This document shows positions 4,439 to 28,166 of a DNA stretch of 64,000 bases, in pieces. The notes under the pieces were generated by a model. It made no database searches and had not been told where the DNA came from. It was given only the letters and a program-made list of their open reading frames with translations. Each line of letters starts with the position of its first letter. The stretch's first letter is position 1. Position numbers and translations under genes: made by a program. Source of the DNA: Anaerobaca lacustris (GTDB lineage Bacteria > Planctomycetota > Phycisphaerae > Sedimentisphaerales > Anaerobacaceae); assembly GCF_030012215.1 (NCBI RefSeq), contig NZ_JASCXX010000001.1, positions 248,001 to 312,000 of the forward strand. The letters run 5' to 3'.

Positions 4439-4449
4439 CAGGACTTCCC

Positions 4450-5148: not shown

Positions 5149-5201
5149 GGGGGCTGTTGTTGGGACCGCCGCCCATTTTTCGCGTTCCGCCCGAATCCCA
5201 G

Positions 5202-5230: not shown

Positions 5231-5242
5231 TAATAACTTGTC

Positions 5243-5327: not shown

Positions 5328-5451
5328 TTCCTTCTTGCGACTTTTCGGCGGGTGTGATGATTCATGCGGGCCGGCAATGGCCCTGACCTTTCTGCCTGTC
5401 CCAGGCCGAGAGGATTGCTGCGGTATTCTGCTGTTGCCTGCCCTGGCAGTC

Positions 5452-6249
5452 CTATTCGACCGCGAATTCCTTCTTGCGGGTGTTCATCTGGGCTTTGAGT
5501 CGTGCCAGGATGGACGAGTGCATCTGCGAAACCCGCGATTCGGACAAATCGAGCGTCGCGCCGATTTCCTTCATCGTCATCTCTTCGTAGTAGTACAGCA
5601 CGATGATGAGTCGCTCGGCCCGCGTCAACCCCTTGGTCAGGAGGTTCTTGAGGTCGCGTTTCTGGGCCTCGATGAGGGGGTCCTCACTGCGATTGTCCTT
5701 GATGACGTCGATCTCATAGACGTCCTTCTCCCCATCCCCGTCGCCGCACTTGGTGCTCAGGGAGACGAGACTGGTGGCGTTGGCATCGCGCTGAAGACGG
5801 ATGAACTCGTCCATGTCCAGGTTCAGTTCCTCGGCCAGTTCGTGTTCGTCCGGCTTTCGGCCCAGGTGCATTTCCAGCGCGTGAGTCGCTTTGGCCAACT
5901 GATGGGCCCGGGCACGCACGAGGCGAGGAACCCAGTCCATGCTCCGCAATTCGTCGAGGATCGATCCCTTGACCCGTGGTGCGCAGTACGTCTCGAATTT
6001 CACCCCGCGGGAAGGATCGTAGGCATCGATGGCGTCCATCAGGCCGAATGTGCCGGCGCTGATCAGATCGTCCAGTTCGACCTTATCGGGAAGTTTGCTG
6101 TGAAGTCGTTCGGCGGCGTGCCTGACGAGGTCTCGGTAATGCTCCATGAGCAGGTTGCGATAGCAGTCATGGTGGCTTTCGTGAAACCGCTCCCATACCT
6201 CGTCGATTGTGAGCTTCTTATCGGTCTTCGCCGCTGTGTTCGTCTTCAC
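5452..6249 (-). CDS. fliA: RNA polymerase sigma factor FliA (sigma-28 family)
   Basis: FliA directs RNA polymerase to motility and late flagellar promoters. The 265-residue protein has sigma region 2 at about residues 35-105 (DDLISAGTFGLMDAIDAYDP, then FETYCAPRVKGSILDELR, the FliA/WhiG signature). Region 3 follows, and region 4 at about 208-257 has the helix-turn-helix MKEIGATLDLSESRVSQ. It lies downstream of flhG on the same strand, separated by 126 bases that hold a consensus sigma-28 promoter, which implies positive autoregulation. No anti-sigma factor FlgM is visible nearby. In this phylum such a factor may also serve non-flagellar genes. Confidence 0.93.
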   Translation of the reverse strand: MKTNTAAKTDKKLTIDEVWERFHESHHDCYRNLLMEHYRDLVRHAAERLHSKLPDKVELDDLISAGTFGLMDAIDAYDPSRGVKFETYCAPRVKGSILDELRSMDWVPRLVRARAHQLAKATHALEMHLGRKPDEHELAEELNLDMDEFIRLQRDANATSLVSLSTKCGDGDGEKDVYEIDVIKDNRSEDPLIEAQKRDLKNLLTKGLTRAERLIIVLYYYEEMTMKEIGATLDLSESRVSQMHSSILARLKAQMNTRKKEFAVE

Positions 6250-7244: not shown

Positions 7245-7736
7245 TCAATCCGTGATACCACCGGGAGTCAATGGGTCTTCGTCCGGTCTGTTATGCGTGG
7301 CGATCTCTGCGCCGGGCCACTGGGCCACGCCCAGGGGGGCGCCGCATTTCAGCGCCAGCAACTCCTTGGCGATCTTGCGGTTCAGTGAGTTCTCGAGGAG
7401 CTTGCTGACCTGCAACTGGATGTACTCATCGCAGTTGCGTTCGAGCAGGGCGCGGGCGTCCGGGTCTGGCTGCGGACGGATTTCCATGCTGCTGTTGGGG
7501 CCGAACCGGATATTGGCCGTATCGCAGAACAACAGACGCCGGTTGCGCAGGTGCTCGGCAATGGCGCCGTTGAGCACGCCGACGAACTCCAGCATGGGCA
7601 TATCCTGCGGCACGAAGCCGGGCGTGCGCGTGTTGTGCATATTGCGGTACAGCACGTCGCGCCGCAGTTCCGTGAAACGGATGATCCTCACCAGCAACTC
7701 GGTCAGATTGTCGGGGATAGAAGACAGCAGGTCCAT
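7245..7736 (-). CDS. FlgB-like flagellar rod protein
   Basis: The 163-residue protein matches the proximal rod protein FlgB in its two conserved ends. Near the N-terminus is the rod/hook signature in divergent form, VLYRNMHNTRTPGFVPQD, where flagellar axial proteins usually read N-x-A-N-x-x-T-P-G-Y. At the C-terminus an amphipathic helix LQVSKLLENSLNRKIAKELLALK fits the FlgB core helix. GGAG lies five bases before ATG at 7736. flhG follows within 23 bases, which supports a flagellar role. No other rod, ring or hook gene is next to it, so either the rest of the flagellar set is elsewhere or the protein has been reused. Confidence 0.68.
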   Translation of the reverse strand: MDLLSSIPDNLTELLVRIIRFTELRRDVLYRNMHNTRTPGFVPQDMPMLEFVGVLNGAIAEHLRNRRLLFCDTANIRFGPNSSMEIRPQPDPDARALLERNCDEYIQLQVSKLLENSLNRKIAKELLALKCGAPLGVAQWPGAEIATHNRPDEDPLTPGGITD

Positions 7737-8099
7737 GGGCACTCCTTCTGCGGAACGATCTCACGCGGTCCGAATGGCGCGGCGAGACGACGCCTTGCGG
7801 GCGGAACGAGCAGGGTCCGAACGGGGGATGCCGCCGGGCGCAAACGGGAGAATTGTCGCTGAGGTAAATCTCTGTACCGCGACAGCGAGGGTGTTGCACT
7901 GTATCACTCGCACCGAAACCGTACGCATCATCCTTGATCCTTTCGGTTTTCCTTCACTGTCCGCGAAGCGGCGAACCTCCGCGGCGTCGATCGCGTGCTT
8001 CCAACAAGGCGGCAAGAAGCACGCCGTTATGTTGCCTCAGACGATACGAAATCGTCTCCTCCCCTCCGCAGGGTATTCGTGCCGGCCTGTGGGGCGTGC
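7737..8099. other. Non-coding gap between the FlgB-like gene and the MerR gene
   Basis: About 360 bases separate the two minus-strand genes. Nothing here has convincing coding character. A 56-codon minus-strand frame starting near 7928-7931 has an AGGA before it but low-information sequence. No clear promoter for the FlgB-like gene was found. Confidence 0.4.
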
Positions 8100-8432
8100 T
8101 CAACGCGCCGAGGTCCGGCAGCCCCCCTCGTCGCGCAAACCCCTCACCGTTCTTTCCTCTTCATTGAGCACTCGACGGATCTCGCCAAGACTCATGCTCT
8201 CTCGCAGTTCCATGATACGGGAAAGGCGATCGAAGACGGACTCGTCATACAGCCGATGGCCCCCCTCGGTCCACTCCGCTTCGCGGATGAGCCCCATGAT
8301 CGTGTAGTTGTGGATCGTCTGGCGGGAGAAGGGACTGCACCGCACCAGTTCGCCGATGCGGTAGCGTTTGGCTGGAACCTGCAGCTTGCGACTGGTCTTC
8401 TCCCAACTCATCGGTGTGGCTCGACGATCCAT
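8100..8432 (-). CDS. MerR-family transcriptional regulator
   Basis: The 110-residue protein holds a single MerR-type winged helix-turn-helix. It starts at KRYRIGELVRCSPFSRQTIHNYTIMGLI and continues with WTEGGHRLYDESVFDRLSRIMELRESMSLGEIRRVL, the wing and first helices of the family. There is no effector domain or cysteine cluster after it, only a short basic tail, so it may bind DNA as a dimer without a small ligand. ATG at 8432 is the likely start; ATG at 8411 is possible, and the frame stays open to 8636 without homology. The promoter about 300 bases upstream contains a perfect palindrome that could be its own operator. Confidence 0.85.
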   Translation of the reverse strand: MDRRATPMSWEKTSRKLQVPAKRYRIGELVRCSPFSRQTIHNYTIMGLIREAEWTEGGHRLYDESVFDRLSRIMELRESMSLGEIRRVLNEEERTVRGLRDEGGCRTSAR

Positions 8433-8717
8433 AAACCCTGCTTGCAGCGATACGACGACCCGGTTGGCCCCGATGCGATACAACTCGTTGCGCGCCGGTC
8501 GGCAAAACACATCGACGTCGCTTTCTTGTTGCACAGGGCCATAATTACACCGGACCGAAACAGACACGTCCCGAAGTGAAACGACCGTCCTTACGAGGTG
8601 GCCTCCCACTCCAGGGCGTCCCGATACACACAACACACATTACATCGCCGCCTGCGTCTGATTCGTGCTTCACAGCCGACACGGCAAACGACGGACGGCC
8701 GAACAAGGGCCGAAGAT

Positions 8718-8743
8718 CTTTTACATTTTGCAAAATGTAAAAG
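8718..8743. promoter_or_regulatory. Perfect 26-base palindrome, probable operator
   Basis: The left arm is C-TTTTACATTTTG and the right arm is its exact reverse complement, with no central gap. It covers the -10 element of the minus-strand promoter at 8734-8762, the position expected for a repressor site. It is AT-rich in a GC-rich region and has no T-run or stem-loop context that would make it a terminator. Confidence 0.75.
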
Positions 8744-8762
8744 GCACTTATCGGCCTGTCAA
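8734..8762 (-). promoter_or_regulatory. Predicted sigma-70 promoter of the MerR gene
   Basis: On the minus strand: TTGACA, a 17-base spacer, TACATT. The -10 hexamer lies inside the 26-base palindrome. The leader to the ATG at 8432 would be about 295 bases, unusually long, so the true start may lie further upstream. Confidence 0.6.
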
Positions 8763-9028
8763 CTGGTTTTGGGCTTTTTCGGGAAAAATCTTCCTGGCGG
8801 TGGGTGGCTCCGGCTTGAATCCAGTCGCCTGCAGCGTAGTAAGGTTGTCCGAAGGCCCTATAACGGATGGGGTTCCGTGCATCCGGCTGGTTCACATTGC
8901 CTCTGTCTGACTCCGGATCGGTCGCGGGCGGGCATTTCGGGATTTTTCCGAACAGGGCGTCGGGGATTGGACGATAAGAAGCGGTGTCGGAACGAATGCA
9001 TGATAGGAGTCAGGTTGACGTCTTTGCC

Positions 9029-10102
9029 ATGACGAAACGAACCAACGAATCGAACGGCCACGAGGACGGTCATTCCCGCCCGGCCTCGACGCTGGAACTG
9101 GTGACACCGCTGGCGCGCCAGATCAACAGTCTGGACATCGACCGCATCGCCGATATCTGTGTCACGAAGATCCCCGCGCTGGTCGGGTCCGCCTTTGCGT
9201 CACTCTATGCTCTGGATGAGCCGAACCACATCCTGCATCTGGTGCGCTGCAACCATCCGTTTCCCATCAACAAGATCGTATCGCTGAATCAGGTTCCGCC
9301 GTCGCCCATGGTGGTGGCGGTCAAGAGCAAGGAGCTGATCCTGACGGGCGATATCGACACGTACACAAAGCCGATCATCAAACGGTCCCAACGGGCCTTT
9401 GCGGAGAACTACGCGACCAGCAACTGTGCGATCGTGCCGCTGATCTGTCACGATGGGGTGGTCGGCGTGCTCAATCTGGCCGACAAGGCCGAGCCAGCCG
9501 CCTTCACACAGGAAGATGTCTTCCTGATCGAGCTGTTCGGCCAGTTGATCGGGGCGTCGATCGGGAACATCAAGTTGTTCGAGAGGATACAGCGTCAGGC
9601 CATGCTGGACGGTCTGACCGGCCTGATGAACCATAAGACATTCTATGAATCGCTGGAGCGCGAGCTGTGGCGCTCGCGTCGCTACGGCGGAACGATCTCG
9701 ATGATCATGGCCGATATCGACAATCTCAAGGCCATCAACGACACCTGCGGCCACCGGGCGGGCGACAAGGTCATTCGGGAGATCGGGCGCAGGATCAAGG
9801 AGTGTATTCGCCAGATCGATCTGGCGGCGCGATACGGAGGGGACGAGTTCGCTGTCATCCTGCCGAATACGTTGCTGGAAGAGGCCGTTCTGGTGTCTCA
9901 GCGCATCGTCGACGCTGTCGCCGGCTCTTCGGTATCCTGGCAAGGCGTCCGAATTCCGCTGTCCATCAGCGTCGGCGTGGGCCAGTACGGCGCCGACGCC
10001 AACCCTGAGGATATCACCAGCCGGTCGGATCGAGCCCTCTACAGTGCCAAGCAATCGGGCAAGAACACCGTCTCGGTCTTTCGGTCCTGCGAAGAGACAT
10101 AG
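9029..10102 (+). CDS. GAF-GGDEF diguanylate cyclase
   Basis: This 357-residue cytoplasmic protein has an N-terminal GAF sensor domain (about residues 20-185) and a C-terminal GGDEF domain that makes cyclic di-GMP. The active site is intact: GGDEF at residues 270-274, preceded by the product-inhibition motif R-x-x-D at 261-264 with the standard five-residue spacing. Upstream signatures DGLTGLMNHKTF and MADIDNLKAINDTCGHRAGD are canonical. No membrane segment or phosphodiesterase domain is present. No good ribosome site is seen before ATG 9029, and in-frame starts at 8984 (GTG) and 8996 (ATG) are alternatives. The MshEN-type pilus ATPases encoded further along are plausible cyclic di-GMP readers. 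Confidence 0.92.
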   Translation: MTKRTNESNGHEDGHSRPASTLELVTPLARQINSLDIDRIADICVTKIPALVGSAFASLYALDEPNHILHLVRCNHPFPINKIVSLNQVPPSPMVVAVKSKELILTGDIDTYTKPIIKRSQRAFAENYATSNCAIVPLICHDGVVGVLNLADKAEPAAFTQEDVFLIELFGQLIGASIGNIKLFERIQRQAMLDGLTGLMNHKTFYESLERELWRSRRYGGTISMIMADIDNLKAINDTCGHRAGDKVIREIGRRIKECIRQIDLAARYGGDEFAVILPNTLLEEAVLVSQRIVDAVAGSSVSWQGVRIPLSISVGVGQYGADANPEDITSRSDRALYSAKQSGKNTVSVFRSCEET

Positions 10103-10248
10103 CCGTTCTCCGTCGCGGATCGCAGACCATCCGAGTGGCCGGCAGACAACCGGCGCCGACGGCGAACCGCTCCTTCGATTCGCCGCCGGACCGGACGTGG
10201 TTTAAGCGTCTGTTGACCTGCCTGTATCGCCTTCGTTATGCCAAGAGC

Positions 10249-10701
10249 CTATCGTGTCCAGCAGTTGCTGTAGTGTCCAATGCCGTGGCTCACACTGTAG
10301 TAGGACACATGGGTGTAGCTGCCCCAGTGCCATGACCAGGGCTGGTTCAGGCCCGGACATGGATAGGGAATCGGGCTTGGGCATGGACTTGGCGTAGGAC
10401 ACGGGCTCGGCGTAGGGCACGGGCTCGGCGTGGGACACGGGCTCGGCGTAGGGCACGGGCTCGGTGTAGGGCACGGGCTCGGCGTGGGACACGGGCTTGG
10501 CGTGGGACACGGCTTCGGCGTGGGGCACGGGCTCGGCGTGGGACACGGGCTCGGCATGGGACACGGTTTGGGACATAAGCCCTGGCTCGACGAGTAAGAC
10601 ACACTCACAAAAGAGCTTGAGTAGTGGACCCCGACGTGATACCCCCACGATGTCGTGCTGAGTGCCAGGACGAGCAGGAGCAACAATGCATATCTCTTCA
10701 T
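10249..10701 (-). CDS. Secreted Cys-Pro repeat protein
   Basis: The 150-residue protein has a clean signal peptide ([20 protein letters not shown]). A short Ser/Tyr-rich stretch follows, then eleven tandem hexapeptides at residues 47-112, mostly C-P-T-P-S-P, and a Trp/Tyr/His-rich tail. Each repeat gives one cysteine, so the export product could form many disulfides or be anchored by cross-links. GGAGG lies six bases before ATG 10701. A smaller relative is encoded just upstream on the same strand (10985-11347), with a similar signal peptide and ribosome-site region. I recognise no family and propose no function. Confidence 0.75.
10366..10563 (-). repeat. 18-base tandem repeat coding for C-P-T-P-S-P
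   Basis: Eleven in-frame copies of an 18-base unit, seven of them consecutive copies translating to C-P-T-P-S-P and the outer ones degenerate ([18 protein letters not shown]). Copies differ mainly at synonymous sites. The array should be prone to copy-number change. Confidence 0.9.
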
Positions 10702-10738
10702 ACGATACCTCCCTGTTGACATAGGATGGCTACGACCC

Positions 10739-10793
10739 CTGCGCACGTCTGTCCGTAGGTCTGCGCAGTGGCTGAGTGCGATTCTGCGCACTC
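10739..10793. repeat. Two adjacent inverted repeats upstream of the Cys-Pro repeat gene
   Basis: CTGCGCA at 10739-10745 pairs with TGCGCAG at 10762-10768. GAGTGCG at 10774-10780 pairs with CGCACTC at 10787-10793 across a six-base loop. They lie 38-92 bases before the start codon at 10701, so they may structure its leader, or end transcription from the related gene upstream. There is no T-run. Confidence 0.5.
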
Positions 10794-10984
10794 GGTCAGT
10801 CCGATCTGTACATGCGATCCGATCAGGTGACTGTGGGTCTGCCTGGCGGCGGTCTTGGGACCACGGACCCTGGTCAGCCGACGAGCCTCAGCCGTGGGTC
10901 ATACGACGGGCCCACGGCCGGGCCGAATCTGTGTGTCGTGCTCACACTGCGATCTGCATTTCGTCTTTGGAGTGCCTCGACAGA

Positions 10985-11347
10985 CTACCCCGGACCGAGG
11001 TTGTTCCAGGGTGTCGGGTACCCGTATGACACATCGCGACCGCCGGACGTCTTGTAGCAACCCCACTGCAGGCAGCCGATCTGGCCCTGGGTGGACTTCG
11101 CCCCTTGATAGCTGTCGACCTCGACCTTGCCGAACCCGGGACAGGGGTTGCAGTAAAGCAAGCCCGTCTGCCCTGAGAAACTGCCTCCGATGACGGCCCC
11201 CGGGCTTGGGCAGGGCGTCGGGCAGGGGGTGGGCCTCGGGCTTGGCATTGGCGCCCAAGAGAAGCTGCCCTCGACGTTGCCGATTCCGAATCCCCATGCA
11301 CTGGTGCTCATCGCGAGCACCGCCAGTACCAATGCGCACTTCTTCAT
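10985..11347 (-). CDS. Small secreted Cys/Pro-rich protein
   Basis: A 120-residue exported protein with signal peptide MKKCALVLAVLAMSTSAWG. Next come a short PMPSPRPTPCPTPCPSPG segment and a C-terminal part with paired cysteines (LLYCNPCPG, IGCLQWGCY). GGAGG lies seven bases before ATG 11347, inside the same ACAGGGAGGTA string found before the neighbouring Cys-Pro repeat gene. Signal peptides of both end in S-x-W-G. The two genes therefore look like relatives that diverged by expansion of the C-P-T-P unit. No known domain. Confidence 0.7.
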   Translation of the reverse strand: MKKCALVLAVLAMSTSAWGFGIGNVEGSFSWAPMPSPRPTPCPTPCPSPGAVIGGSFSGQTGLLYCNPCPGFGKVEVDSYQGAKSTQGQIGCLQWGCYKTSGGRDVSYGYPTPWNNLGPG

Positions 11348-11795
11348 CCTTCTACCTCCCTGTAAACAGACATTCCTTTTTCATCAGAGCATTGCCTTCT
11401 CCGGAAGGCCGCTCCGTCCGGACGCACCTAAATCATCCATGCGGGTGCGCATCGATGCAAACCCACTGATCGTGATGGTCGTGCGCGGAGACAGAACGCA
11501 TCTGAGAACAGGAGTGTGGCGGAGAAATGTGGCCCCTTCAGCATCCCTGCCTCCGTGCCCGTGTATCGACTCCAACCGATACACGATCTATTCCTACACT
11601 GCGCAGAGGCCGTTGTCAAGAGAAAACTGGACGTTTTATGCGACAATTCGCCGTTGCTGCCTCCGTGGTCTGCCCCGAGGTCTTCGCATAAGCTTCCCAA
11701 CGCGACGCGATTGTGGTAGCCTGGATGACACGCGTCGCAGGCGTGTCGCTGAGGCGGTCCGTCTGCTGGCGGACAACAAGAAAATGGGGAATGAC
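11348..11795. other. Intergenic region of about 450 bases
   Basis: It separates the minus-strand secreted protein from the plus-strand membrane protein and should hold promoters for both, but no convincing -35/-10 pair was found. An imperfect hairpin (GACACG/CGTGTC) lies near 11725-11745. Confidence 0.35.
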
Positions 11796-12428
11796 ATGAA
11801 CGACAGCTCCATCGCCGAGAATCCAGCGCAGAGCAATGGGGGCAGACCTGATTCCGGGCACGGGGTTCGTCGTCGCAGACGGCGGTTTCGCGTGCGAGTC
11901 GCGATCGCCTTGCTCCTGGGCCTTTGCGGGCTGGCGGTGGTGCGTCAACTGACGCATGTGCCGCCGTCTCCGGACGGGCGCTACGGATGGACGCTTCACT
12001 TTCCGGGCCCGTCTCCTGGGGCGACGTTCAAGACCGCCCCGGGCGATGACATCCGGCGACTGCTCGATTTCCTGCTCATCGATGCGGGAGCAGACTGGCA
12101 TGGTGCCTTGCAGGAGACCGGGACGATTCAGATCGAACTGTCCCACGTCAGCGCCGCGCCGCTGGGCGTTCGGCTGCTGTGGCGGTTCCTGGGCCCCGAA
12201 GGAACACCGGCTCCCGACAAGATGGGTCGCACGCTCCTGACCGTGCAGGTTCGCGTGCCATCGACCGGGCGGCCGGGATACGAGATCGTGCGACTCGGGC
12301 CGCAGGGAACGGAGACCGTAATCGGGGTGTTCGACGAATACCGGAAGGCGGAGGATGCGATCCTTGACAATCTGGCTGACGTGATGGAGGCCGTGCAGGC
12401 CAAGGCCGGCGGCTGGCGGATCGGTTGA
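11796..12428 (+). CDS. Membrane-anchored protein of unknown function
   Basis: The 210-residue protein has a short hydrophilic N-terminus and a strongly basic stretch (VRRRRRRFRVR). One membrane helix follows at about residues 33-50 (VAIALLLGLCGLAVV), so it should sit in the inner membrane with its C-terminal domain outside the cytoplasm. That domain (about 150 residues) reads like a mixed alpha/beta fold; I recognise no family. GGGGA five bases before ATG 11796 favours this start over ATG 11784. The apiosidase-like gene follows after 63 bases. Confidence 0.72.
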   Translation: MNDSSIAENPAQSNGGRPDSGHGVRRRRRRFRVRVAIALLLGLCGLAVVRQLTHVPPSPDGRYGWTLHFPGPSPGATFKTAPGDDIRRLLDFLLIDAGADWHGALQETGTIQIELSHVSAAPLGVRLLWRFLGPEGTPAPDKMGRTLLTVQVRVPSTGRPGYEIVRLGPQGTETVIGVFDEYRKAEDAILDNLADVMEAVQAKAGGWRIG

Positions 12429-17150: not shown

Positions 17151-17547
17151 CGGCCACAGCGTACCCGCGCGACCGTTCCCTGTCAACGCGTGGGCCATGT
17201 CGCATTTGCAGCCGCCGGACCGGACCGTGGAATGACAGGGCTTGAAATGCGACGCACATTCCGATAAGATGGGCGTAGTGAACTGAGGTTTGAAGGCCGG
17301 CCGGAGATGACTATCATATCCGGGCTTGTCGTTATCATTCTATTGTCGCATATCATACCGCCGGCGCCTTCGCAGACCTCGCTGAGATCGTTCGTTTTGG
17401 CTTGAGGGATTTCGGAGTACCGCCAACACCCCGCACACAACCAGGAAGGTTTCGGCCTAAGATGCGCCCTCTGTCCGGTCGAAGAGAAGGCTGGTGCTGA
17501 ACGTATGGTTATCATCCATTCATCTATTCCAATCAAGGAGCGGTACG
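17151..17547. other. Divergent intergenic region, lipoprotein gene and A2M gene
   Basis: Nearly 400 bases with no credible gene. It contains one plausible plus-strand promoter (17242-17270), listed separately; the rest gives no clear signal. Confidence 0.4.
17242..17270 (+). promoter_or_regulatory. Candidate promoter of the alpha-2-macroglobulin gene
   Basis: TTGAAA, a 17-base spacer and TAAGAT. The implied leader is about 270 bases, which is long, so this is tentative. Confidence 0.35.
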
Positions 17548-20500
17548 ATGGCATGCAAAACGAGATTCACAGGGCTTCTGCTGCTGGGGCTCCTGGCCGG
17601 CGCGGTCCGGGCGGGGGCTGTCGAGGTCATGATGGTCGTCCCGAAGACGCTGTATTCTGGGGCATCGGCGTCCGCCACGATCACAGCGGTCGCCGACCGT
17701 GAATCGGCCGCGGGGCGGGTGGTGGACGTGGGACTCAGGACGCCCGAGGGGGTCGTGAGTCTCGTTGCCGGGGCCACCGACGAGGTGGGGCGGTTCATCG
17801 CTCGATTTGAGGCGCCCGATGTGTCGCCGGGGGCCTACGTCCTGGAGGTTCGTGTCGACGGCGCCGACGACCTTCTGACCAGCCAGGTCCAGATCCGCCG
17901 GATGCCGGTGGTGCTGATCGAGACGGACAAGCCGATCTACAAGCCGGGCCAGACGATCCAGGGCCGCGTTCTGGTGCTGACGAACGAACTGCGTCCGACG
18001 GCGTCCGACGTCTCCGTCCAGATCACCGACGGTAAGGGCGTCAAGATCTTCCGCAAAGAGCTGACGACCAACGCCTTCGGCGTCGCACCGTTCGATCTTG
18101 CCTTGGCGAGCGAATTGAACTATGGCACCTGGAAGATCACCGCCGAGTCCGGCGCCGGCCGGGGGACCATCGACCTGCGGGTCGAGCGGTACGTGCTGCC
18201 GCGATTCGAGGTCAAGCTGGACACGCCGCGCGACTACTTCCGCACCGATGAGAAGATCCCCGGTACCATAACGGCCACGTATTTCTTCGGCAAGCCGGTC
18301 GATGGTGCGGTCGAGATCAGCGCCAGTCGCTACGTCGGCGTGTGGGAGGAGTACACCCGCTACACGGCGCCGCTGGCTGAGGGTCAGGCCCAGTTCTCCT
18401 TGCCGGAGGTGAGATACGTCAGTGGGACGCCGGGAGGCGCGGGCTCGGGCAGCGTACAACTCGACGTCACCGTCACCGATACGTCGGGCCACCAGGAGAA
18501 GACGACCAGGCTGCTGAAGATCGTCTCATCGGGCATCGAGCATCGGCTTATCGCCTCGTCGCGGTCGTTCACGCCCGGTCAGCCGTATGAGGTCCTGCTG
18601 GTGGCTGAGACGCCCGATGGTGTGCCTGTCTCCGTGGCCGGACAACTGATCTGCGAATACTACTCTGAATCAGGCGATCCGCTCTCAAAGGAGGGCCATC
18701 CGCTGGCGTTCGAAGGCTCGACCTGGGTCACGCTGACCGCGCCGCAAAAGGCGTCCTGGGCGTTGCTCAGCAGCACCGTGCGAGGCGACGACGAGAGCGG
18801 CCAGGCGGAGTTGTACGTCTATTCGACGTACTCGCCGAGCGACAGCTTTGTCCATCTGAGCCGCACAGCCCGGGGCACAGTCGGGGCGGGCGAGACCGTC
18901 GCCATCGACGTCTTCCGCACGCATCAGGCGACGGTTTACTATGACGTGTTCGCCAACGGACGCACCGTCTGGTCGGATGCCGTAACCGGCTCGTCGATTC
19001 GTTTCCAGGCCACGCAGCAGATGGTGCCGGCCGCCAGGGTGGTGGCCTATGCGATCAACCCGAACAACGAGATATCGGCCGACACGATCGAATTCGATGT
19101 TGTGATGGACCACTCGGCTTCCTTGAGTCTGGGCCTCAGCGCCGAAGAGGTTGGGCCCGGCGAGCCGGTTCGCCTCTCCGTTCGCTCCGAGATTCAGTCC
19201 ATGATCGGTCTGGCCATCGTCGACGAATCGGTCTATGCGTTGAACGAGGGTCGACTCAATATGCAGGAGGTGTTCAACGAACTTGAGAAGCGTTTCATGG
19301 AGCCGCAGGCGGAGACGCACGATCAGCCCTACAGCTATGGCGCCCGCAACGTGTTCGAGGACGCCGGACTTCAGGTAGTCACTTCACAAGGTCTGGATGT
19401 TCCCGAGGGCCGGCGGATTGGCGGTCTTTGGTGGTGGGTCGATCCGGTCCGGCGCGATGCCGGCGGGGAAAGCCCCACTGCGCCCGACAACGATGCCGGA
19501 CTGGCGGAAGTTGAGCGGGTTCGCCAGTTCTTCCCCGAGACATGGGTGTGGATGCCCGATCTGCTTACCGAGCCGAACGGGGTAGCCGTGCTAAACCTGA
19601 CGGCCCCGGACAGCATCACCACGTGGCGCCTTCACGCCGTCTCGACCTCCGACAACGGCCTCGGCATCGCAGAGTCTTCGCTGCGCGTATTCCAGGAATT
19701 CTTCGGCGAGCCCGATTTGCCGTATGCGGTGACGCGGGGCGAGCAGTTCCCCGTCCGCATTCAGGTCTACAACTATCTCGATGTGCCTCAGGTGGTCCAC
19801 GTGGAGATGATCGACGCCGACTGGTTCGACCTGCTCGACCTCCGCGAGCAGCAGATTCAGGTCAACGCGAATTCCGTCTCTTCGGTTTCGTTTCTCATCC
19901 AGCCGACGAAGCTCGGGCGTCATCCGCTGGAGGTTCGTTTGCGTTCGGTCCTGCGGGCCGATGCCGTGCGCAAGGAAGTCCTCGTCGAACCGCAGGGCAC
20001 GCGTCGCGAGATCGTCACCAACGGTCTGATCCGGGCGGGCGAGACGGTTTCGCTCGAAGCGGACATGCCGCCGTATGCGGTGCCCGACTCGCAGAAGCTT
20101 CTGCTGAGCATTACGCCCAGCCTGGTTGCCCAGAGCATCAGCGGGGTGGACGATCTGCTCGGCATGCCCTACGGCTGTGGCGAGCAGAACATGATCCTCT
20201 TCGCGCCGAACGTCGAGGTCCTGCGGTACCTCAACGCGACGGGCCAGCTCACCCCCGAGGTGCGGGCCAAGGCCGAGCACTTCATTACGGTCGGCTATCA
20301 GCGACAACTGACGTTCCGTCACCAGGACGGGGCGTTCTCGGCCTTCGGTGAAAGCGACGCCGAGGGCAGCCTCTGGCTGACGGCGTTCGTGCTCGGAACG
20401 TTCAGCGCCGCCCGCGAAGTGACCACGATCGATGAAACGATCCTGTCGGACGCGGCCGGGTGGATCGTGTCGCACCATTTGGCCGATGGCTCGTGGGAGC

Positions 20501-21576
20501 CGATCGGGTTTGTCTGTCACAGCGAGATGGTCGGCGGGGTGCAGGGGACCTTCGCCTTGACGGCCTTTGTGACGATCGCGCTGGCTGACTACGGCATGGT
20601 CGCGCCGCACGTGCTGGGAGCGGCAACTCAATATCTGCGCGACAACCTCTCGTCCGTTCAGGACGATGCCTATGCCCTGGCGATTGCGGCTTTGGCCTTT
20701 GCCCGCTTGGGCGACCCCACGGCCGACGTGGCGCTCGACCGCCTGCTGGCGATCGCGATCAGTGAGGCCGATGGACTGTACTGGCGACCTCATTCGGTCG
20801 AGACGACCGGCTACGTGGCGCTGGCGATGATCGAGAGGGAATGGCCTCAGGCGAATGCTGCGATCCAGTGGCTGGCGCTTCAGCGCAATAGTCTCGGCGG
20901 CTACGGAAGCACGCAGGATACCGTTGTGGCGCTCAAGGCCCTGATGATGGCGGCCCGCAGCCAGGGCCGGAGTGTGGACCTGACGGTGACTGCCAGGTCG
21001 GCCGATGGGGACGCACTGGCGCAGTTCGCGGTCAGCTACGAGAATTTCGACGTCCTTCAGACGGCGGAACTGCCGCTTGAGCCGGGTGTGGAGATCGACG
21101 CCGTCGGATCGGGCCAGGTGCGGTTCCAGTTGGTGCGCCGGTTCAACGTCCTGTTGTCAGACGACTCCGTCGAGAAGGACATGACGCTGGAGGTGGTTTA
21201 TGACGCCGATCACGTCGAGGTCGATGACATCGTCAACGTTACGGCGACGGTGCGGTACTTCGGCCGCAAGGACTCCACGGGTATGATGATCGTGGACGTC
21301 GGCGTGCCCACGGGCTTCTCGACCGTTACGGAGTCGCTGGAAGCTCTGGTTGCAGAGAGACTCATCACACGGTACGAGGTGGCGGGACGCAAGGTGATCT
21401 TCTATCTCGATGGTCTGGAACGGGGCGAGCAGCGTACACTGCGTTTTCAGGTCAAGGCCCGCTTCCCGGTGCGCGCAACTATACCTGACAGCCGGGCCTA
21501 TTCCTATTATGAGCCTGACGTGCGTGCCGAGGCATCCGGAAATGAGATCACGGTCGAACTTGCCCCACAGCAGTAA
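17548..21576 (+). CDS. Alpha-2-macroglobulin family protein with thioester, eukaryote-like layout
   Basis: The 1342-residue secreted protein traps proteases. It has a cleavable signal peptide (RFTGLLLLGLLAGAVRAGA) without a lipobox and N-terminal macroglobulin domains (KPIYKPGQTIQGRVLVL). A bait-region-like stretch lies between IVDESVYALNEG and FPETWVW, at about residues 560-665. The thioester motif is PYGCGEQN with Cys at residue 877, within an alpha/alpha toroid domain. A C-terminal receptor-binding-type domain ends in SYYEPDVRAEA. Length and this last domain resemble animal A2M and complement proteins more than the roughly 1500-1650-residue lipoprotein form paired with PBP1C in proteobacteria. 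No pbpC gene is adjacent. AAGGAG lies eight bases before ATG 17548. A bidirectional terminator follows. Confidence 0.93.
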   Translation: MACKTRFTGLLLLGLLAGAVRAGAVEVMMVVPKTLYSGASASATITAVADRESAAGRVVDVGLRTPEGVVSLVAGATDEVGRFIARFEAPDVSPGAYVLEVRVDGADDLLTSQVQIRRMPVVLIETDKPIYKPGQTIQGRVLVLTNELRPTASDVSVQITDGKGVKIFRKELTTNAFGVAPFDLALASELNYGTWKITAESGAGRGTIDLRVERYVLPRFEVKLDTPRDYFRTDEKIPGTITATYFFGKPVDGAVEISASRYVGVWEEYTRYTAPLAEGQAQFSLPEVRYVSGTPGGAGSGSVQLDVTVTDTSGHQEKTTRLLKIVSSGIEHRLIASSRSFTPGQPYEVLLVAETPDGVPVSVAGQLICEYYSESGDPLSKEGHPLAFEGSTWVTLTAPQKASWALLSSTVRGDDESGQAELYVYSTYSPSDSFVHLSRTARGTVGAGETVAIDVFRTHQATVYYDVFANGRTVWSDAVTGSSIRFQATQQMVPAARVVAYAINPNNEISADTIEFDVVMDHSASLSLGLSAEEVGPGEPVRLSVRSEIQSMIGLAIVDESVYALNEGRLNMQEVFNELEKRFMEPQAETHDQPYSYGARNVFEDAGLQVVTSQGLDVPEGRRIGGLWWWVDPVRRDAGGESPTAPDNDAGLAEVERVRQFFPETWVWMPDLLTEPNGVAVLNLTAPDSITTWRLHAVSTSDNGLGIAESSLRVFQEFFGEPDLPYAVTRGEQFPVRIQVYNYLDVPQVVHVEMIDADWFDLLDLREQQIQVNANSVSSVSFLIQPTKLGRHPLEVRLRSVLRADAVRKEVLVEPQGTRREIVTNGLIRAGETVSLEADMPPYAVPDSQKLLLSITPSLVAQSISGVDDLLGMPYGCGEQNMILFAPNVEVLRYLNATGQLTPEVRAKAEHFITVGYQRQLTFRHQDGAFSAFGESDAEGSLWLTAFVLGTFSAAREVTTIDETILSDAAGWIVSHHLADGSWEPIGFVCHSEMVGGVQGTFALTAFVTIALADYGMVAPHVLGAATQYLRDNLSSVQDDAYALAIAALAFARLGDPTADVALDRLLAIAISEADGLYWRPHSVETTGYVALAMIEREWPQANAAIQWLALQRNSLGGYGSTQDTVVALKALMMAARSQGRSVDLTVTARSADGDALAQFAVSYENFDVLQTAELPLEPGVEIDAVGSGQVRFQLVRRFNVLLSDDSVEKDMTLEVVYDADHVEVDDIVNVTATVRYFGRKDSTGMMIVDVGVPTGFSTVTESLEALVAERLITRYEVAGRKVIFYLDGLERGEQRTLRFQVKARFPVRATIPDSRAYSYYEPDVRAEASGNEITVELAPQQ

Positions 21577-21689: not shown

Positions 21690-22415
21690 CTAAAGCGTCC
21701 TACGCCGACGCAGCCAGCCCACCGTGCTTGCGCCGATGGCGCCCAAAAGCAGCGCCCCGGGGGCCGGAATCACCGGCGTACCGCCGCCGGAAACCTTCGC
21801 CCAGAGGGTGGTGGTCGTCACATTGCCCTGGGCTGCGCACGGGCCCCAGACAGGTTCGGGTGTCTCGAACGACGAGATGATGCTTTCAGCATCATCGCCG
21901 AAGCCCAGCAGTTGCAGCTCATAATCCACGTCACCGACCTGGAAGGCGATAGGATCGAACGATGTCGGCAGATAGATTGCGTCCGGGGGCCCGCCATCCA
22001 GGCCGCCGACCGTCTCGGTGATCCCCAGGGTCAGCGACCTGTTCACTGGTCCTGAGCCGAAGTTAAACGACAGGTCCAGATCGACCGACGTGATACCGGT
22101 GCCGTTCCCTATGGGGGTGTTGTAGTGCCGCAATGTCCCCACCGCAAACGGCGAGCCGAGCGTGATGTCGACAGGCGTAGCCTCGGGCGTGAAGCCGAGA
22201 TACGTCTTGCCGTATATGCCCGGGGTTCCCCAAATAATCCGCCGCTCACCTAACACCGTGTCATAGGTGGGGGCAGGGGTCCAGGGAGGGGCCGAGGGCT
22301 GGAGTACTGGATTGCTCCACGTGCCATCGACGCTTTGAAGCGTCGGTGCACCACTGGCGCTGCCGACCATGACGAGCAACGCCACAACCGACAGTATTGC
22401 TGGTAACCGTCTCAT
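21690..22415 (-). CDS. PEP-CTERM exosortase-sorted surface protein, choice-of-anchor K type
   Basis: A 241-residue exported protein with an N-terminal signal (LPAILSVVALLVMVGSASGA) and a C-terminal sorting signal: IPAPGALLLGAIGASTVGWLRRRRTL, that is a PEP-like motif, a membrane helix and an Arg cluster. An exosortase should cleave it. The body (SVDLDLSFNFGSG, then DAIYLPTSFDPIAFQVGDVDYELQLLGF) resembles the choice-of-anchor K beta domain found with several sorting tags. AAGGAG lies seven bases before ATG 22415. Exosortase itself is not in the window. Confidence 0.85.
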   Translation of the reverse strand: MRRLPAILSVVALLVMVGSASGAPTLQSVDGTWSNPVLQPSAPPWTPAPTYDTVLGERRIIWGTPGIYGKTYLGFTPEATPVDITLGSPFAVGTLRHYNTPIGNGTGITSVDLDLSFNFGSGPVNRSLTLGITETVGGLDGGPPDAIYLPTSFDPIAFQVGDVDYELQLLGFGDDAESIISSFETPEPVWGPCAAQGNVTTTTLWAKVSGGGTPVIPAPGALLLGAIGASTVGWLRRRRTL

Positions 22416-22832
22416 CTTGTGTCTCCTTACACTCCGTGTGACTACTTGGAAACCGTTAGCGTACCTCGCAGTTATGGGACCGCCTGACACCTCCTTTCGT
22501 GGGGATTCTCCCACCCACAACGAGACCTTCCTTGCTCCCGTCCGGGCAAACACCGCCCCGAACGGCGTTCGCTCATCCCCACTGCCTCCGAGTACGCTTC
22601 GAGTCTGTGCGTGCACAACCCGACGCGGAAGAAACCAAACATGCGTTTACCACCACCCCATCCGATAGAATTGTACACGCAATATAGGACTCGGTGCAAA
22701 TATTTCTATTGGGGAAAATGCTTATTGTGACGCGGGAGACTTGGGGAAGATGGGGGCTTTGCTTGTCCGGTCTACCCATCGGAGCGTCTCAGCGGCCGCC
22801 CGCCATGCGGCAGATGGTCTGTGCCGCGTCGC
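22416..22832. other. Leader and intergenic region upstream of the PEP-CTERM gene
   Basis: About 417 bases between two minus-strand genes. It contains a candidate minus-strand promoter (22670-22699) and, after it, a leader of about 250 bases with several short inverted repeats (for example GTGGG/CCCAC near 22500-22520). No known riboswitch motif was recognised. Confidence 0.4.
22670..22699 (-). promoter_or_regulatory. Candidate promoter of the PEP-CTERM gene
   Basis: On the minus strand: TTGCAC, an 18-base spacer, TACAAT. Confidence 0.4.
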
Positions 22833-24042: not shown

Positions 24043-24182
24043 GGTACAGGATGTGTATGTTGCGCCTTCACGGCGGGCGGAGTCCTGACCGACATCGGGA
24101 TCGACAAGGGTTCGGGGTCATGATAGAGCCATTGTACCGGTACGCCCGCCATCGTCTGAATCGCCGGGAGTGAGGAATGATT

Positions 24183-27100
24183 ATGATACGCGAGTCCCGC
24201 TCGACCGCCATTTCCACGCTGATTTGCATCTGCCTGTGGTGTGGCTTCGCGTCCACTGCCCCGGCGGCTGGCGGCGCGGGCATTCCCCTGGCCATCAACG
24301 AGTTCATGGCCAGCAACAGCGGCACGTTGGCCGATCCCCAGGGTCAGTACGGCGACTGGGTCGAGATCCATAACTACAGCGATACGTCGATCGACCTGGC
24401 TGGCTTGCATCTGACGGACGATCCGGACAATCCGACAAAGTGGCGGATCCCGGGCGGCGCATCGCATCTGACGAGTATCCCGGCCGGGGGCTACCTGCTC
24501 ATCTGGCTCGACGCCAGCACGGGCGATGCCGGACTGCACGCCTCGTTTGCGCTGGATTCGGACGGCGAAGCCATTGCGCTGTTCGCGCCCGACGGGACGA
24601 CCCTGATCGATGTCGTTACCTTCGGAAAACAGAGGGTCGATGTCTCCTATGGTCGTTCGCCCGACGGTACGGGTCCGTTCGGCTATATGCTCGTCCCGAC
24701 GCCCGGCGCACCCAACAGCGGTCTTTACGAATGCGTTGTAGCCGAACCGCAGTTCAGCCATGGTCGGGGATTCTACGATTGGCCGATTGAGGTGGAGATC
24801 ACGTGCGAGACGCCAGGGGCGACGATCTACTACACCCTCGACGGCAGCGAACCGTACTCACGAACACGCCAGATCCCCTCCGGCAGCGTCTATACCGGCC
24901 CGATCCTCCTGTACAGGACCACCTGCCTGCGGGCCCAGGCGATCAAGCCGGAGTCTCTGCCGAGCGACCCGGTGACGCATACGTACCTGTTTCTGGACGA
25001 TGTGGCGACCCGCTCGCAGTCGGCGGTCCTGGGCCAGGGCTATCCGAGCACGTGGTACGGGTCGTATCCGGCCCACTACGAGATGGCGCCGGCGATCTAC
25101 AACCGTCCTGAGTACGCCGATGTCATGGACGATGCGCTGCTGGCGATTCCAACCCTCTCGATCGTGACCAACAAGGACCATCTCTTCAGCAAGGCCAACG
25201 ATCCTGAGACCGGCGGGATCTACATCTACACCGGTCACGGCAGCACGGGCGGCCAGCGCTGGGAGCGCCCCGTCTCAGCCGAGTTGTTCACCTTCGACGG
25301 CGCCCGCGAGTTCCAGGTCGACTGTGGCATTCGCCTCCAGGGCGGGGAGAGCCGCAATCCGCCGAAGTGCCCCAAGCACAGCTTCAGCCTGCGATTCCGG
25401 GGCAGCTATGGCGCCTCGAAGCTGGATTTCCCGCTGTTTGACGGTGGTCCGGTGGATGCGTTCGATTCGCTGCAACTCCGCGGGTTCTTCAACAACTCGT
25501 GGATTCACTGGTCTCCCGATCAGCGGCAGCGCGCCCAGTACATTCGCGACCAATGGATGCGGGATTCGCTGCTCGACATGGGCCAGGCCGACGCGGGCCG
25601 GGGGTTCTACGTTCATCTCTATCTCAACGGGATTTACTGGGGCCTCTACCTCGTCCAGGAGCGGCCGGTCGCGTCGCACTACGCCGCCTACAACGGCGGC
25701 AACCCCGATCGGATCGACGCGATCAATGGAGGCCAGCCGACCGACGGAACGGGCCAGGCCTGGCAGCAGGCCAAGAGCGTCGCGGCCAGTGGCGACTGGG
25801 CCCGGATCTGTCAAATCATCGACATCGACAATTTCATCGACTTCACGCTCCTGAACCTGTTCGCCGGCAACGTCGATCTGAAGACCAATGGGAACTGGCG
25901 GGCTGCCGGCGGCGGACCCGACAACCAACCGTGGCGCTTCTACAGTTGGGACGCCGAGCAGATCCTCGTGAATCGCAACCAGACCAGCACGAGCCCATCA
26001 TCGGACCCGACCGGCATGTATCGGCCCCTCTCCCAAATCGAGGAGTTTCGTATCCGCTTCGGCGACCGCGTCCACAAGCACCTGTTCAACGACGGGGCCC
26101 TGACAGCCGAACGCAACATCGAGCGATGGGAGAAACGCGCCGACGAAATCGACGTGGCGGTCGTCGCCGAGTCGGCTCGCTGGGGCAGCTATCGCCGCGA
26201 CGTGCACTCCTGGAGTTCAGGGCCTTACCAACTGTACACCCGCAACGACTACTGGATTGCCGAGAGGCAACGGCTCCTGGAGGACTACTTCCCCCGCCGT
26301 AACAGCGTCGCGCTGTCGCAGTTCAGGTCCCTCGGGCTCTATCCCAACATCGAGGCACCGGTCTTCCACGTCAATGGCGTTTACCAGCACGGCGGTCACG
26401 TTGAGAGGACCGTGTGGCTCACGATGCCGTCCAGCGCCTCGACGGTCTGGTATACCCTCGACGGCAGCGACCCGCGCACGCCCGGTTCGACCGGCAGCAA
26501 GGGTGAGGAACTGGTCCTGGTGCCCGAGGACGCGCCCAAACGCGCGTTCGTTCCGACAGCGGACATCGGCGGCGCGTGGCGCACCGATGTGAATTACGAC
26601 GATTCCGGCTGGATCGCCGGCGCCGGCGGCGTCGGCTACGAACGCACTACCGGCTACGAGCATCTCTTCGACATCGACGTAAGCAGCCAGATGTACGGGA
26701 GGAACACAAGCTGCTACATTCGGATTCCGTTCGACGTTACGCCGGAAGGGCTGCAGTTTGCCGGCGGGCTCTACCTCAAGGTCCGGTACGACGACGGGTT
26801 CATCGCCTACCTCAACGGTGTCGAAGTCCAGCGCGTCATGTTCCAGGGGACGCCTGCATGGAACTCGGAGGCGACGGCCAATCATTCCGATCTGGACGCC
26901 GTCGAGTTCGAGACGTTCGATATCTCGAATCATATCAGCCGGCTTGCCCTGGGGCGCAACATGCTGGCGGTCCACGGACTCAACGCCGGCGACACCAGTT
27001 CAGACTTCCTGATCTCCGTCGAGCTGGTCTCGTCCCGGGGCGGCGGCGACGTGCCGAGCGGCGTCTCGCCGTCCGCCATCCGCTATGCCGGCCCCGTGTA

Positions 27101-28166
27101 TCTCGACGCCAGCGCCCTGGTCCGCGCCCGGGCCCAGAACAGCACCTCTTGGAGCGCTCTGAACGAGGCGGTGTATGCGGTTGGGCCCGTGGCTCAGAGC
27201 CTGCGGATCAGCGAGATCATGTACCATCCGCCGAAGACGGGTTCTCCGGACGACCGTGACGCCGAGTACGTCGAACTCGTCAACGTCGGCAGCCAGGCCA
27301 TCAATCTCAATCGCGTCCGGTTCACAGACGGGATCGATTTCACCTTCGGCAGCGTCACTCTGGCGCCGTGGGAGTACGCCGTGATTGTCAAGGACGTTGC
27401 CGTCTTCGAGGCCACGTACGGGGACGGGGCCCGCATCGTCGGGCAGTACGAAGGCCGCCTGGACAATGCGGGCGAACGGATCGAGCTACAGGATGCGCTC
27501 GGACAGACCATCCTCGCGTTCCGATACAAGGACGGATGGTACGATGGGACCGACGGGGGCGGTTATTCCCTGACGGTAATCGATCCCGCGACGGCCGATT
27601 CGGCGGCGCTCGACAAGAAGTCCGCCTGGCGTCCCAGCGCCGAGGTCGGTGGCTCACCCGGCTACGACGACAGCGACCAGACCCCAGCCCCCGCGCCCGA
27701 TCCCGACCCGGTCCCCAGCGTCGAGACGGTCGTCATCAACGAGTTGCTGGCCCATTCGCCGCCCGGCACGCCCGACTGGATCGAGCTTCACAACACAACG
27801 GACCAGGTGATCGACATCGGCGGCTGGTTCCTCAGTGACGATGCGGCCGATCCGACCAAATACGAAATCCCAGCCGGGATCCGGCTTGCGGCTGGCGGCT
27901 ACTTCGTCTTCTACGAGTACGTGCACTTCGGCAACGCGAACGCGCCCGGCTGCCATACGCCGTTCCAGCTCAGTCCGAACGGCGGCACACTCTATCTGCG
28001 TTCACCTTTGCATGGCGCCCCGGCCGACTACCGGCACGAAGTTACGTTTGGTCCGTCCGATCCTGGTGTCACGCTTGGACGCTATCTCAGCACTACGGGC
28101 AGCTACGAATTCGGCGCCCTCCGCGCCGCCACGCCCGGCAAAGCCAACGCCGCCCCCGCCCCATGA
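24183..28166 (+). CDS. Large secreted multidomain protein: lamin-tail domains and CotH kinase-like domain
   Basis: The 1327-residue protein has a signal peptide (STLICICLWCGFASTAPAAG). A first lamin-tail domain at about 35-155 (INEFMASNSG...WVEIHNYSD) is followed by a chitobiase/Ig-like segment near 190-270 (PGATIYYTLDGSEP). A CotH-type domain spans about 310-680, with WRFYSWDAEQIL. A second copy of the YTLDGSDP segment is near 755, then a galactose-binding-like region at about 780-935. Two more lamin-tail domains follow near 1000-1130 and 1185-1320. CotH is an atypical protein kinase in spore-coat systems; in bacteria like this one its target is unknown. GAGG seven bases before ATG 24183 sets the start. 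No C-terminal sorting signal is seen. It may be a cell-surface or matrix protein. Confidence 0.88.
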   Translation: MIRESRSTAISTLICICLWCGFASTAPAAGGAGIPLAINEFMASNSGTLADPQGQYGDWVEIHNYSDTSIDLAGLHLTDDPDNPTKWRIPGGASHLTSIPAGGYLLIWLDASTGDAGLHASFALDSDGEAIALFAPDGTTLIDVVTFGKQRVDVSYGRSPDGTGPFGYMLVPTPGAPNSGLYECVVAEPQFSHGRGFYDWPIEVEITCETPGATIYYTLDGSEPYSRTRQIPSGSVYTGPILLYRTTCLRAQAIKPESLPSDPVTHTYLFLDDVATRSQSAVLGQGYPSTWYGSYPAHYEMAPAIYNRPEYADVMDDALLAIPTLSIVTNKDHLFSKANDPETGGIYIYTGHGSTGGQRWERPVSAELFTFDGAREFQVDCGIRLQGGESRNPPKCPKHSFSLRFRGSYGASKLDFPLFDGGPVDAFDSLQLRGFFNNSWIHWSPDQRQRAQYIRDQWMRDSLLDMGQADAGRGFYVHLYLNGIYWGLYLVQERPVASHYAAYNGGNPDRIDAINGGQPTDGTGQAWQQAKSVAASGDWARICQIIDIDNFIDFTLLNLFAGNVDLKTNGNWRAAGGGPDNQPWRFYSWDAEQILVNRNQTSTSPSSDPTGMYRPLSQIEEFRIRFGDRVHKHLFNDGALTAERNIERWEKRADEIDVAVVAESARWGSYRRDVHSWSSGPYQLYTRNDYWIAERQRLLEDYFPRRNSVALSQFRSLGLYPNIEAPVFHVNGVYQHGGHVERTVWLTMPSSASTVWYTLDGSDPRTPGSTGSKGEELVLVPEDAPKRAFVPTADIGGAWRTDVNYDDSGWIAGAGGVGYERTTGYEHLFDIDVSSQMYGRNTSCYIRIPFDVTPEGLQFAGGLYLKVRYDDGFIAYLNGVEVQRVMFQGTPAWNSEATANHSDLDAVEFETFDISNHISRLALGRNMLAVHGLNAGDTSSDFLISVELVSSRGGGDVPSGVSPSAIRYAGPVYLDASALVRARAQNSTSWSALNEAVYAVGPVAQSLRISEIMYHPPKTGSPDDRDAEYVELVNVGSQAINLNRVRFTDGIDFTFGSVTLAPWEYAVIVKDVAVFEATYGDGARIVGQYEGRLDNAGERIELQDALGQTILAFRYKDGWYDGTDGGGYSLTVIDPATADSAALDKKSAWRPSAEVGGSPGYDDSDQTPAPAPDPDPVPSVETVVINELLAHSPPGTPDWIELHNTTDQVIDIGGWFLSDDAADPTKYEIPAGIRLAAGGYFVFYEYVHFGNANAPGCHTPFQLSPNGGTLYLRSPLHGAPADYRHEVTFGPSDPGVTLGRYLSTTGSYEFGALRAATPGKANAAPAP

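Follow-up and report, generated by a model that had tools for sequence, protein, structure and literature searches.

Does a planctomycete gene for an animal-type alpha-2-macroglobulin (A2M) stand as a lone oddity, perhaps taken from an animal, or does it belong to a prokaryotic family with a history and function of its own? The gene in question lies in a 64,000-nucleotide stretch of the Anaerobaca lacustris genome (contig NZ_JASCXX010000001.1, positions 248,001 to 312,000), which we call the window, and an earlier note had described its product as a eukaryote-type A2M in a bacterium. An animal origin of bacterial A2M is reportedly raised in the title of a 2004 paper by Budd and co-workers. We find that the window protein is a member of a prokaryotic family and native to its planctomycete lineage, and that it probably acts as a secreted, non-lipidated, animal-type macroglobulin that traps proteases through a thioester. 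Other lines of the same phylum very probably carry selenocysteine (Sec) in place of the thioester cysteine.

The open reading frame (ORF) holds all the landmarks first noticed in it: 1342 residues, the GCGEQN motif, FPETWVW, a YYEPDVRAEA end and a receptor-binding-like C-terminal domain, the last now matched by PF07677. All six of its Pfam domains score above their own cut-offs and follow the animal order (Table 1). The bacterial domain bMG10 falls below threshold (E value 0.014, 16 bits against a cut-off of 26.2), and in NCBIfam the sole match is a RimP model, with 13.6 bits where 150 are required. Among sequences with solved structures, the closest are human A2M (6.5e-124) and CD109 (1.7e-122), followed by A2ML1. 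The N terminus, MACKTRFTGLLLLGLLAGAVRAGA-VEV, has an AxA site and no lipobox cysteine by eye, which agrees with the cleavable, non-lipoprotein signal proposed earlier, and no transmembrane or cytoplasmic part is apparent by eye beyond that signal. The protein has four cysteines in all, at positions 3, 369, 877 and 990, the first within the signal.

Structural models of the two halves predict an A2M/C3 fold in its native arrangement. The C-half model, with a mean predicted local distance difference test score (pLDDT) of 86.2, matches native human A2M at Z 43.1 with a root mean square deviation (rmsd) of 3.3 over 667 residues, and fits TEP1 (Z 42.9), A2ML1 (42.5) and bovine C3 (41.4) about as closely, whereas activated forms match only at an rmsd of 13.5 to 15.3. 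The N-half model (pLDDT 79.9) is best matched in its MG ring by chains of C5, CD109, C4, C3 and A2M, at Z 25 to 28. Bacterial A2M structures are absent among the 50 matches listed per model and were not used as evidence.

We placed the protein with a maximum-likelihood tree of the C-terminal half, built from 58 rows: 40 prokaryotic proteins with GCGEQN, four human proteins (A2M, A2ML1, CD109 and C3, with TEP1, C4, C5 and Xenopus A2M left out), nine proteins of group C, a planctomycete macroglobulin type with GCFEQT, and five of the E. coli type. The rows were chosen for a GC.EQ motif, so that the cysteine and glutamine are present by construction. The human rows and the 40 GCGEQN prokaryotes are joined with support of 100/98, apart from group C and the E. 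coli type, and the same branch holds at 93/98 once E. coli, C3 and two long rows of group C are removed. Holding the window's group (group A) together with the five E. coli-type rows, the pbpC-linked placement that the earlier note had named as the contrary outcome, was rejected (p-AU 0.0022). Pairwise identities over the C half follow the same pattern: the window protein shares 57% with a Methanolobus protein (L109), 35% with human A2M, 34% with CD109 and 32% with A2ML1 and C3, then 28 to 31% with two group C proteins and 16% with E. coli yfhM. Residue 881 is asparagine in all 40 GCGEQN prokaryotes and all four human rows, and threonine in all nine group C and all five E. coli-type rows. The column of His991 holds histidine in 39 of the 40 GCGEQN prokaryotes, three of the four human rows and two of the nine group C rows, and a gap in all five E. 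coli-type rows. On these alignments, the GCGEQN prokaryotes have their closest kin, of all sequences compared, in the animal proteins, and vice versa.

The order of branching within this alliance may run either way, with the prokaryotes sister to the animal proteins or containing them. The prokaryotic GCGEQN rows fall on one side with support of only 66/73 in the 58-row tree and 60/83 after removal of four long rows, and in a quick tree, the animal rows fall inside them (87). With human proteins as the only animal sequences, a prokaryotic origin of animal macroglobulins is the simpler rooting because two prokaryotic sets, group C and the E. coli type, fall outside. The 14 archaeal rows form one clade (100/100) beside the window's group and the Hydrogenedentota protein (98/96), a pattern that would fit one transfer from bacteria to Methanosarcinales. 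The available part of PMC8416519 describes archaeal A2M homologs with CxEQ and calls one of them, WP_015053894.1 of Methanolobus psychrophilus, bacterial-like and acquired from bacteria. That protein probably belongs to our archaeal group; in our tree, however, the Methanolobus proteins group with human and planctomycete rows and not with the E. coli type. Among the literature matches listed, judged by title and the start of the abstract and with subscription papers mostly outside, none describes animal-type macroglobulins in planctomycetes.

The relatives are numerous enough to dispose of the oddity implied by the first description, while its animal-type character stands. We scanned named prokaryote genomes with an alignment of ten sequences, a search that finds only loci holding one of two peptide patterns, and obtained 68 related loci: 27 in Planctomycetota, 30 in Methanosarcinales, six in Omnitrophota, three in Acidobacteriota, one in Hydrogenedentota and one unassigned. 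These loci are not a census, as some are fragments and, in a few genomes, two may be pieces of one gene. GCGEQN, which was not among the selecting patterns, is present in 65 of the 68; the other three (L151, L163 and L164) stop short of the motif. Most of the genomes compared are metagenome assemblies. Four archaeal records are named Methanolobus strains with no metagenome label in their titles. In the window's order, the protein finds matches at E 0.001 in 47 of 148 genomes: 19 at 59 to 100% identity (its own genome included, some as fragments) and the remaining 28 at 36% or less. All six genomes listed for its genus, its own included, have relatives. In a sample of the class, the C half has matches at 1e-30 in 13 of 248 genomes, with an identity of 65% or more in five. 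PF07677 occurs in 44 of 392 genomes of the window's phylum against none of 14 controls, and in 25 of 294 genomes of the Methanolobus phylum.

That the closest solved sequences are human might suggest a recent acquisition from an animal, or a contaminated assembly. The spread just described, throughout the genus, in 19 of 148 genomes of the order and in named archaeal strains, speaks against it, as does a C half far closer to that of Methanolobus than to that of human A2M. Contamination is further disfavored because the gene sits on a 391.7-kb contig, its GC content at third codon positions is 0.808, against 0.73 to 0.86 in 12 other genes of the window, and its neighborhood is shared by its relatives in the genus. 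On contig size, base composition, synteny and genus-wide presence, we rejected contamination, a pseudogene and recent transfer from an animal; such an origin would be extremely improbable. Two other loci of the family are noted here for their composition. In L101, from Sedimentisphaerales, an E. coli-type A2M (YGCLEQT, 310-5709, plus strand) stands about 2 kb from an animal-type GCGEQN A2M (7773-12167, plus strand). L105, a group A locus (7269-12122, plus strand), encodes a LamG-type lectin domain (PF13385, 1.4e-16) N-terminal to the macroglobulin.

From these features, we infer that the window protein would be exported, form its thioester, be cleaved and trap its attacker much as animal A2Ms do. 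A protease would cut an exposed bait at about residues 601 to 657, ahead of MG7. The CUB-TED-MG8 unit would then rearrange and expose the thioester between Cys877 and Gln880, which His991 would convert to a reactive acyl-imidazole. The window protein would thereby bond covalently to the protease and block it. Near the thioester of C3, C4B and A2ML1, a histidine gives an acyl-imidazole that also takes hydroxyls, according to the available part of PMC9156758. The proposed bait has some of the expected properties: it is the segment least conserved against L097 (60% identity, other segments 83 to 96%), it stands at 63% against L098 (others 57 to 95%, with MG1 lowest at 57%), it is rich in insertions and deletions in the ten-sequence alignment used for the scan, and residues 628 to 665 of the N-half model have a pLDDT below 50.

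The human proteins A2M, A2ML1 and CD109 share with the window protein the domain order, GCGEQN, the position of the bait and the MG8/receptor domain, along with C-half identities of 32 to 35% and native-state fold matches of Z 39.8 to 43.1. They differ from it in that the window protein has only its four cysteines and bacterial secretion, and in that human A2M has asparagine for His991. Human A2M is a disulfide-linked tetramer. Because four cysteines make such a tetramer hardly possible, the window protein is probably a monomer that, by analogy with A2ML1, relies on its covalent bond; non-covalent oligomers may also occur. A2ML1 is, per its abstract, a monomer that needs covalent binding.

Several observations weigh against this account of the protein and its placement. 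Against its nearest relative, L108, the bait is 89% identical and no less conserved than the other segments, MG1 is about as variable as the bait stretch, and a search for positive selection in the bait gave no sign of it, the ratio of nonsynonymous to synonymous substitution rates (dN/dS) being 0.11 to 0.32. The loop around His991 (residues 989 to 999) has a pLDDT below 50, and one GCGEQN relative, L104, has leucine in the histidine column, with a histidine one residue earlier and altered surrounding sequence. Tails in 10 of 13 group A and six of six group B proteins, together with the lectin-like domain of L105, hint at surface attachment in place of trapping by a free protein. As for the tree, only four human sequences represent animals, the C-terminal half alone was compared, and the tree program flagged rows of odd composition and long branches, which meet in the reduced tree.

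The tails are themselves varied. Among 13 group A loci, seven end by eye in dockerin-like repeats, three in about 215 other residues and three bare, the window protein being bare; dockerin-like ends also occur by eye in all six group B proteins and in the Hydrogenedentota protein. By eye, the loci with dockerin-like tails after the receptor-binding domain include L099, L136, L161, L144, L145, L155 and L119. A loose lipobox pattern fits 25 of 29 archaeal relatives, unlike the window protein.

The main rival to protease trapping is a tag in the manner of complement or TEPs, in which the thioester of the cleaved protein would bond to nearby cells, phages or glycans and mark or coat them. It draws on the C3-type histidine of the prokaryotic rows, which, as far as the available part of PMC9156758 goes, permits hydroxyl targets, on the LamG-like domain of L105 and on the equally good fit of TEP1 and A2M to the C-half model. 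Complement C3 and insect TEP1 indeed share TED and the fold with the window protein, and human C3 shares the histidine. However, A2ML1 has the same histidine and is a protease inhibitor, and the window protein, 32% identical to human C3 over the C half, has no anaphylatoxin or C345C-type match in Pfam up to E 1, HMMER filters dropping weak matches. Nor did any specific partner gene common across genera emerge among 27 stretches. We consider a tagging role unlikely. Less likely still is that the protein is a folded but inactive relative, such as an adhesin or structural protein that merely retains the motif. The tails and lectin-like domain among its relatives would suit such a role, but GCGEQN is kept in all 65 loci that reach it, dN/dS in TED is 0.08 to 0.17, and the histidine persists in 39 of 40 rows. 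Trapping of proteases is the function we favor.

Comparison with the known bacterial systems sets the protein apart from them. The type I A2M of bacteria, represented by E. coli yfhM, belongs to the same superfamily and has a CxEQ motif like the window protein, but yfhM is only 16% identical to it, reads YGCLEQT, is 1653 residues long, has a pbpC neighbor and falls in a separate clade. Type I A2M is described as a lipoprotein in the available part of PMC3328433. With no lipobox by eye, no pbpC neighbor and a place outside that clade, the window protein differs from this pbpC-linked lipoprotein type, as the earlier note had held. The type II protein MagD has no CxEQ motif and belongs to a six-gene mag operon, per the accessible text of PMC5764988; the window protein, by contrast, has CxEQ and flanking genes on the other strand at both sides. 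We also considered the CAGE assembly (PMC12485934), which shares A2M-like sandwich domains, and set it aside, as the word thioester is absent from its main text.

Because the flanking genes on both sides, which have homologs in the genus, lie on the opposite strand, the A2M gene is probably transcribed on its own. No second A2M was found in the genome, which gives a single match each to PF00207 and PF07678. The absence of a pbpC partner, also claimed earlier, is borne out among the 12 ORFs scanned at 11 to 32 kb, both next neighbors included and some ORFs there unscanned: none has a penicillin-binding-protein domain. The scanned neighbors instead hold DUF362, NUDIX, methyltransferase, apiosidase, GH130, CotH/LTD and alpha-galactosidase domains, or nothing known. 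In the search for a partner gene, clear synteny appeared only within the window genus and within Methanolobus. What recurs across genera is GH130 in the window genus, L093 and L095, beta-helix proteins upstream in L088, L090 and L093, GntP permeases in L089 and L139, as well as some transporter ATPases and further matches of low identity. Three neighbors accompany the gene in its genus. The ORF at 24177-28166 (plus strand, 1329 amino acids), with three LTD (lamin tail) stretches, CHB_HEX_C_1 and a CotH kinase domain, stays near the A2M gene in L083 to L085, as does the one at 21690-22616 (minus strand), by eye a probable PEP-CTERM-type surface protein with a VIPAPGALLLGAIGASTVGWLRRRR end. Just 5' of the A2M gene, at 17183-17554 (minus strand), is a 123-amino-acid ORF without a Pfam match, and an ORF 58% identical to it adjoins the A2M gene of L083.

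Table 1. Coordinates of the window A2M gene and its parts, and of sigma-linked genes at group C loci
Feature	Coordinates	Strand	Basis
Alpha-macroglobulin gene, animal-type, 1342 aa	17548..21576 (including stop)	+	ORF, Pfam domains, relatives
Ribosome-binding-site-like AAGGAG, 7 bases 5' of ATG	17535..17540	+	read by eye
Probable cleavable signal peptide, aa 1-24, without lipobox	17548..17619	+	by eye
MG2, aa 124-207	17917..18168	+	PF01835 5.8e-17
MG3, aa 214-270	18187..18357	+	PF17791 1.2e-13
A2M_BRD region, aa 441-565	18868..19242	+	PF07703 2e-21
Bait-like variable stretch, aa 601-657	19348..19518	+	bounds by eye; identity, insertions and deletions, pLDDT
A2M / MG7 match, aa 665-754, starting within FPETWVW (aa 662-668)	19540..19809	+	PF00207 1.7e-26
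TED, aa 860-1132	20125..20943	+	PF07678 (TED_complement) 8.5e-72; structure match
Thioester motif GCGEQN, aa 876-881 (Cys877, Gln880)	20173..20190	+	alignment
His991, column of His in C3, A2ML1 and CD109 (Asn in human A2M)	20518..20520	+	alignment
Receptor-binding-like MG8, aa 1243-1329	21274..21534	+	PF07677 (A2M_recep) 3.4e-17
Group C macroglobulin, L067	L067:832-6108	-	
Sigma-type gene, L067	L067:6072-6737	-	
Sigma-type gene, L078	L078:293-1015	+	
Sigma-type gene, L079	L079:5626-6300	-	
Sigma-type gene, L080	L080:252-833	+	

The group C macroglobulins raise another possible role. A sigma-70/ECF-type gene, confirmed by Pfam, lies directly upstream of the macroglobulin gene in four of the 12 group C loci inspected (L067, L078, L079 and L080; eight unscanned). 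A zf-HC2 finger stands at the N terminus of the proteins of L064 (2088-7562, minus strand) and L067; none was found in those of L079 or L063, both scanned, and the L079 protein has a hydrophobic N-terminal segment by eye. It is plausible, from these sequence features, that the ectodomain of a group C macroglobulin serves as a protease-sensing anti-sigma factor. Among the literature matches listed, so far as the accessible parts go, none joins a macroglobulin with an anti-sigma factor. By extension from these cousins, the window protein itself might mainly signal proteolytic damage to the envelope. Yet it has no apparent membrane-spanning or cytoplasmic part through which to do so, and no sigma gene is present among the neighboring ORFs scanned, which makes a sensor very unlikely for the window protein, and the trap remains our preferred reading.

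A further group within the phylum departs from the family in its chemistry. PF07677 matched 60 places in the phylum, 32 of them in open frames of 260 to 610 residues; all of these but G055 and G133 were examined, 30 in total. A TGA stands exactly at the thioester cysteine, as GU(F/M/C)EQ, and starts the frame in 28 of these loci, from 20 Planctomycetota genomes (L184, L185 and L187 to L212; for example, L190:4462-4464 and L193:4362-4364, both plus strand). Of the other two, L186 has a frame that enters from elsewhere, and L213 lies close to the start of its contig. Downstream of the TGA, the frame continues for 441 to 509 codons. Upstream, 19 of the 28 loci stay free of in-frame stops over 1000 codons or more; the contig start cuts the frame in L205, L209 and L211, and a stop lies 762 to 950 codons away in L207, L208 and L212 and 304 to 338 codons away in L199, L203 and L204. 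When read through the TGA, four of five tested loci match all six macroglobulin Pfam domains (the bait-region domain of L193 below its cut-off), and the fifth, L185, is without an MG3 match. In L203 and L204, both from G011, the frame opens only some 305 to 315 codons ahead of the TGA, and an ATG and a hydrophobic segment follow closely on the upstream stop; these are perhaps shorter, secreted half-macroglobulins.

RNA structure and translation machinery also bear on Sec. The RNA 9 to 60 bases from the TGA folds with a mean z of -2.46 relative to shuffles (n = 28), compared with +0.37 for the same interval in 12 GCFEQT homologs and +0.22 in 63 GCGEQN homologs (p 8e-6 and 2e-10). This interval is the strongest of those tried; two longer ones agree (p at most 5e-4), and the 45-96 stretch gives no clear difference (p 0.68 and 0.06). 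Against a Sec hairpin, no single helix in a fixed register common to all 28 was found, the best registers being about half paired. Searches for tRNA-Sec and SelB at E 0.001 match all 14 controls, so we used the SelB cut-off and 65 bits for tRNA-Sec, the latter threshold placed, once the scores were known, within their gap from 54.5 to 67.5. On that basis, tRNA-Sec is present in 14 of the 20 genomes with Sec-type loci, SelB in 17 and either in 19; the twentieth, G131, has a SelB fragment at a contig end, below the cut-off. Such machinery alone proves little because the thresholds are also passed by seven of the 10 comparison genomes that have no TGA locus. The genome of the window fails them, with best scores of 43.2 (tRNA-Sec) and 200 bits (SelB).

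On a quick tree, the Sec and cysteine rows interleave, with five changes, three of them forced for the Sec label. Taken as sequences, these loci very probably record an exchange of the thioester cysteine for Sec in lines of the window's phylum, and their products would be the first selenoester macroglobulins. The words macroglobulin and thioester are absent from the main texts of two prokaryotic selenoprotein reviews, the deep-Sep paper and a planctomycete genome paper that includes selenoproteins (PMC13188914, PMC9312934, PMC12013277 and PMC4807772), and none of the literature matches listed for macroglobulins and selenocysteine, going by title and the start of the abstract, concerns Sec macroglobulins.

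The family makes the question of a bacterial or animal origin of A2M testable from the prokaryote side, with kin of the window protein in bacteria and in methane-making and methane-eating archaea, named strains among them. In its C half, the protein is 32% identical to human C3 and 35% to human A2M, only slightly more, and it lies closer to C3 than A2M does, the two human proteins being 28% identical. We tentatively raise the possibility that the prokaryotic superfamily is older than the animal one, and that A2M, CD109/TEP and complement descend from the GCGEQN lineage of the window gene through its transfer into an early ancestor of animals, alongside the Sec exchange in same-phylum lines. 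Being small and almost without cysteines, the window protein can serve as a model for the thioester switch and as a prokaryotic outgroup in work on how complement arose; its selenocysteine relatives, if real, would work that switch by a new chemistry.

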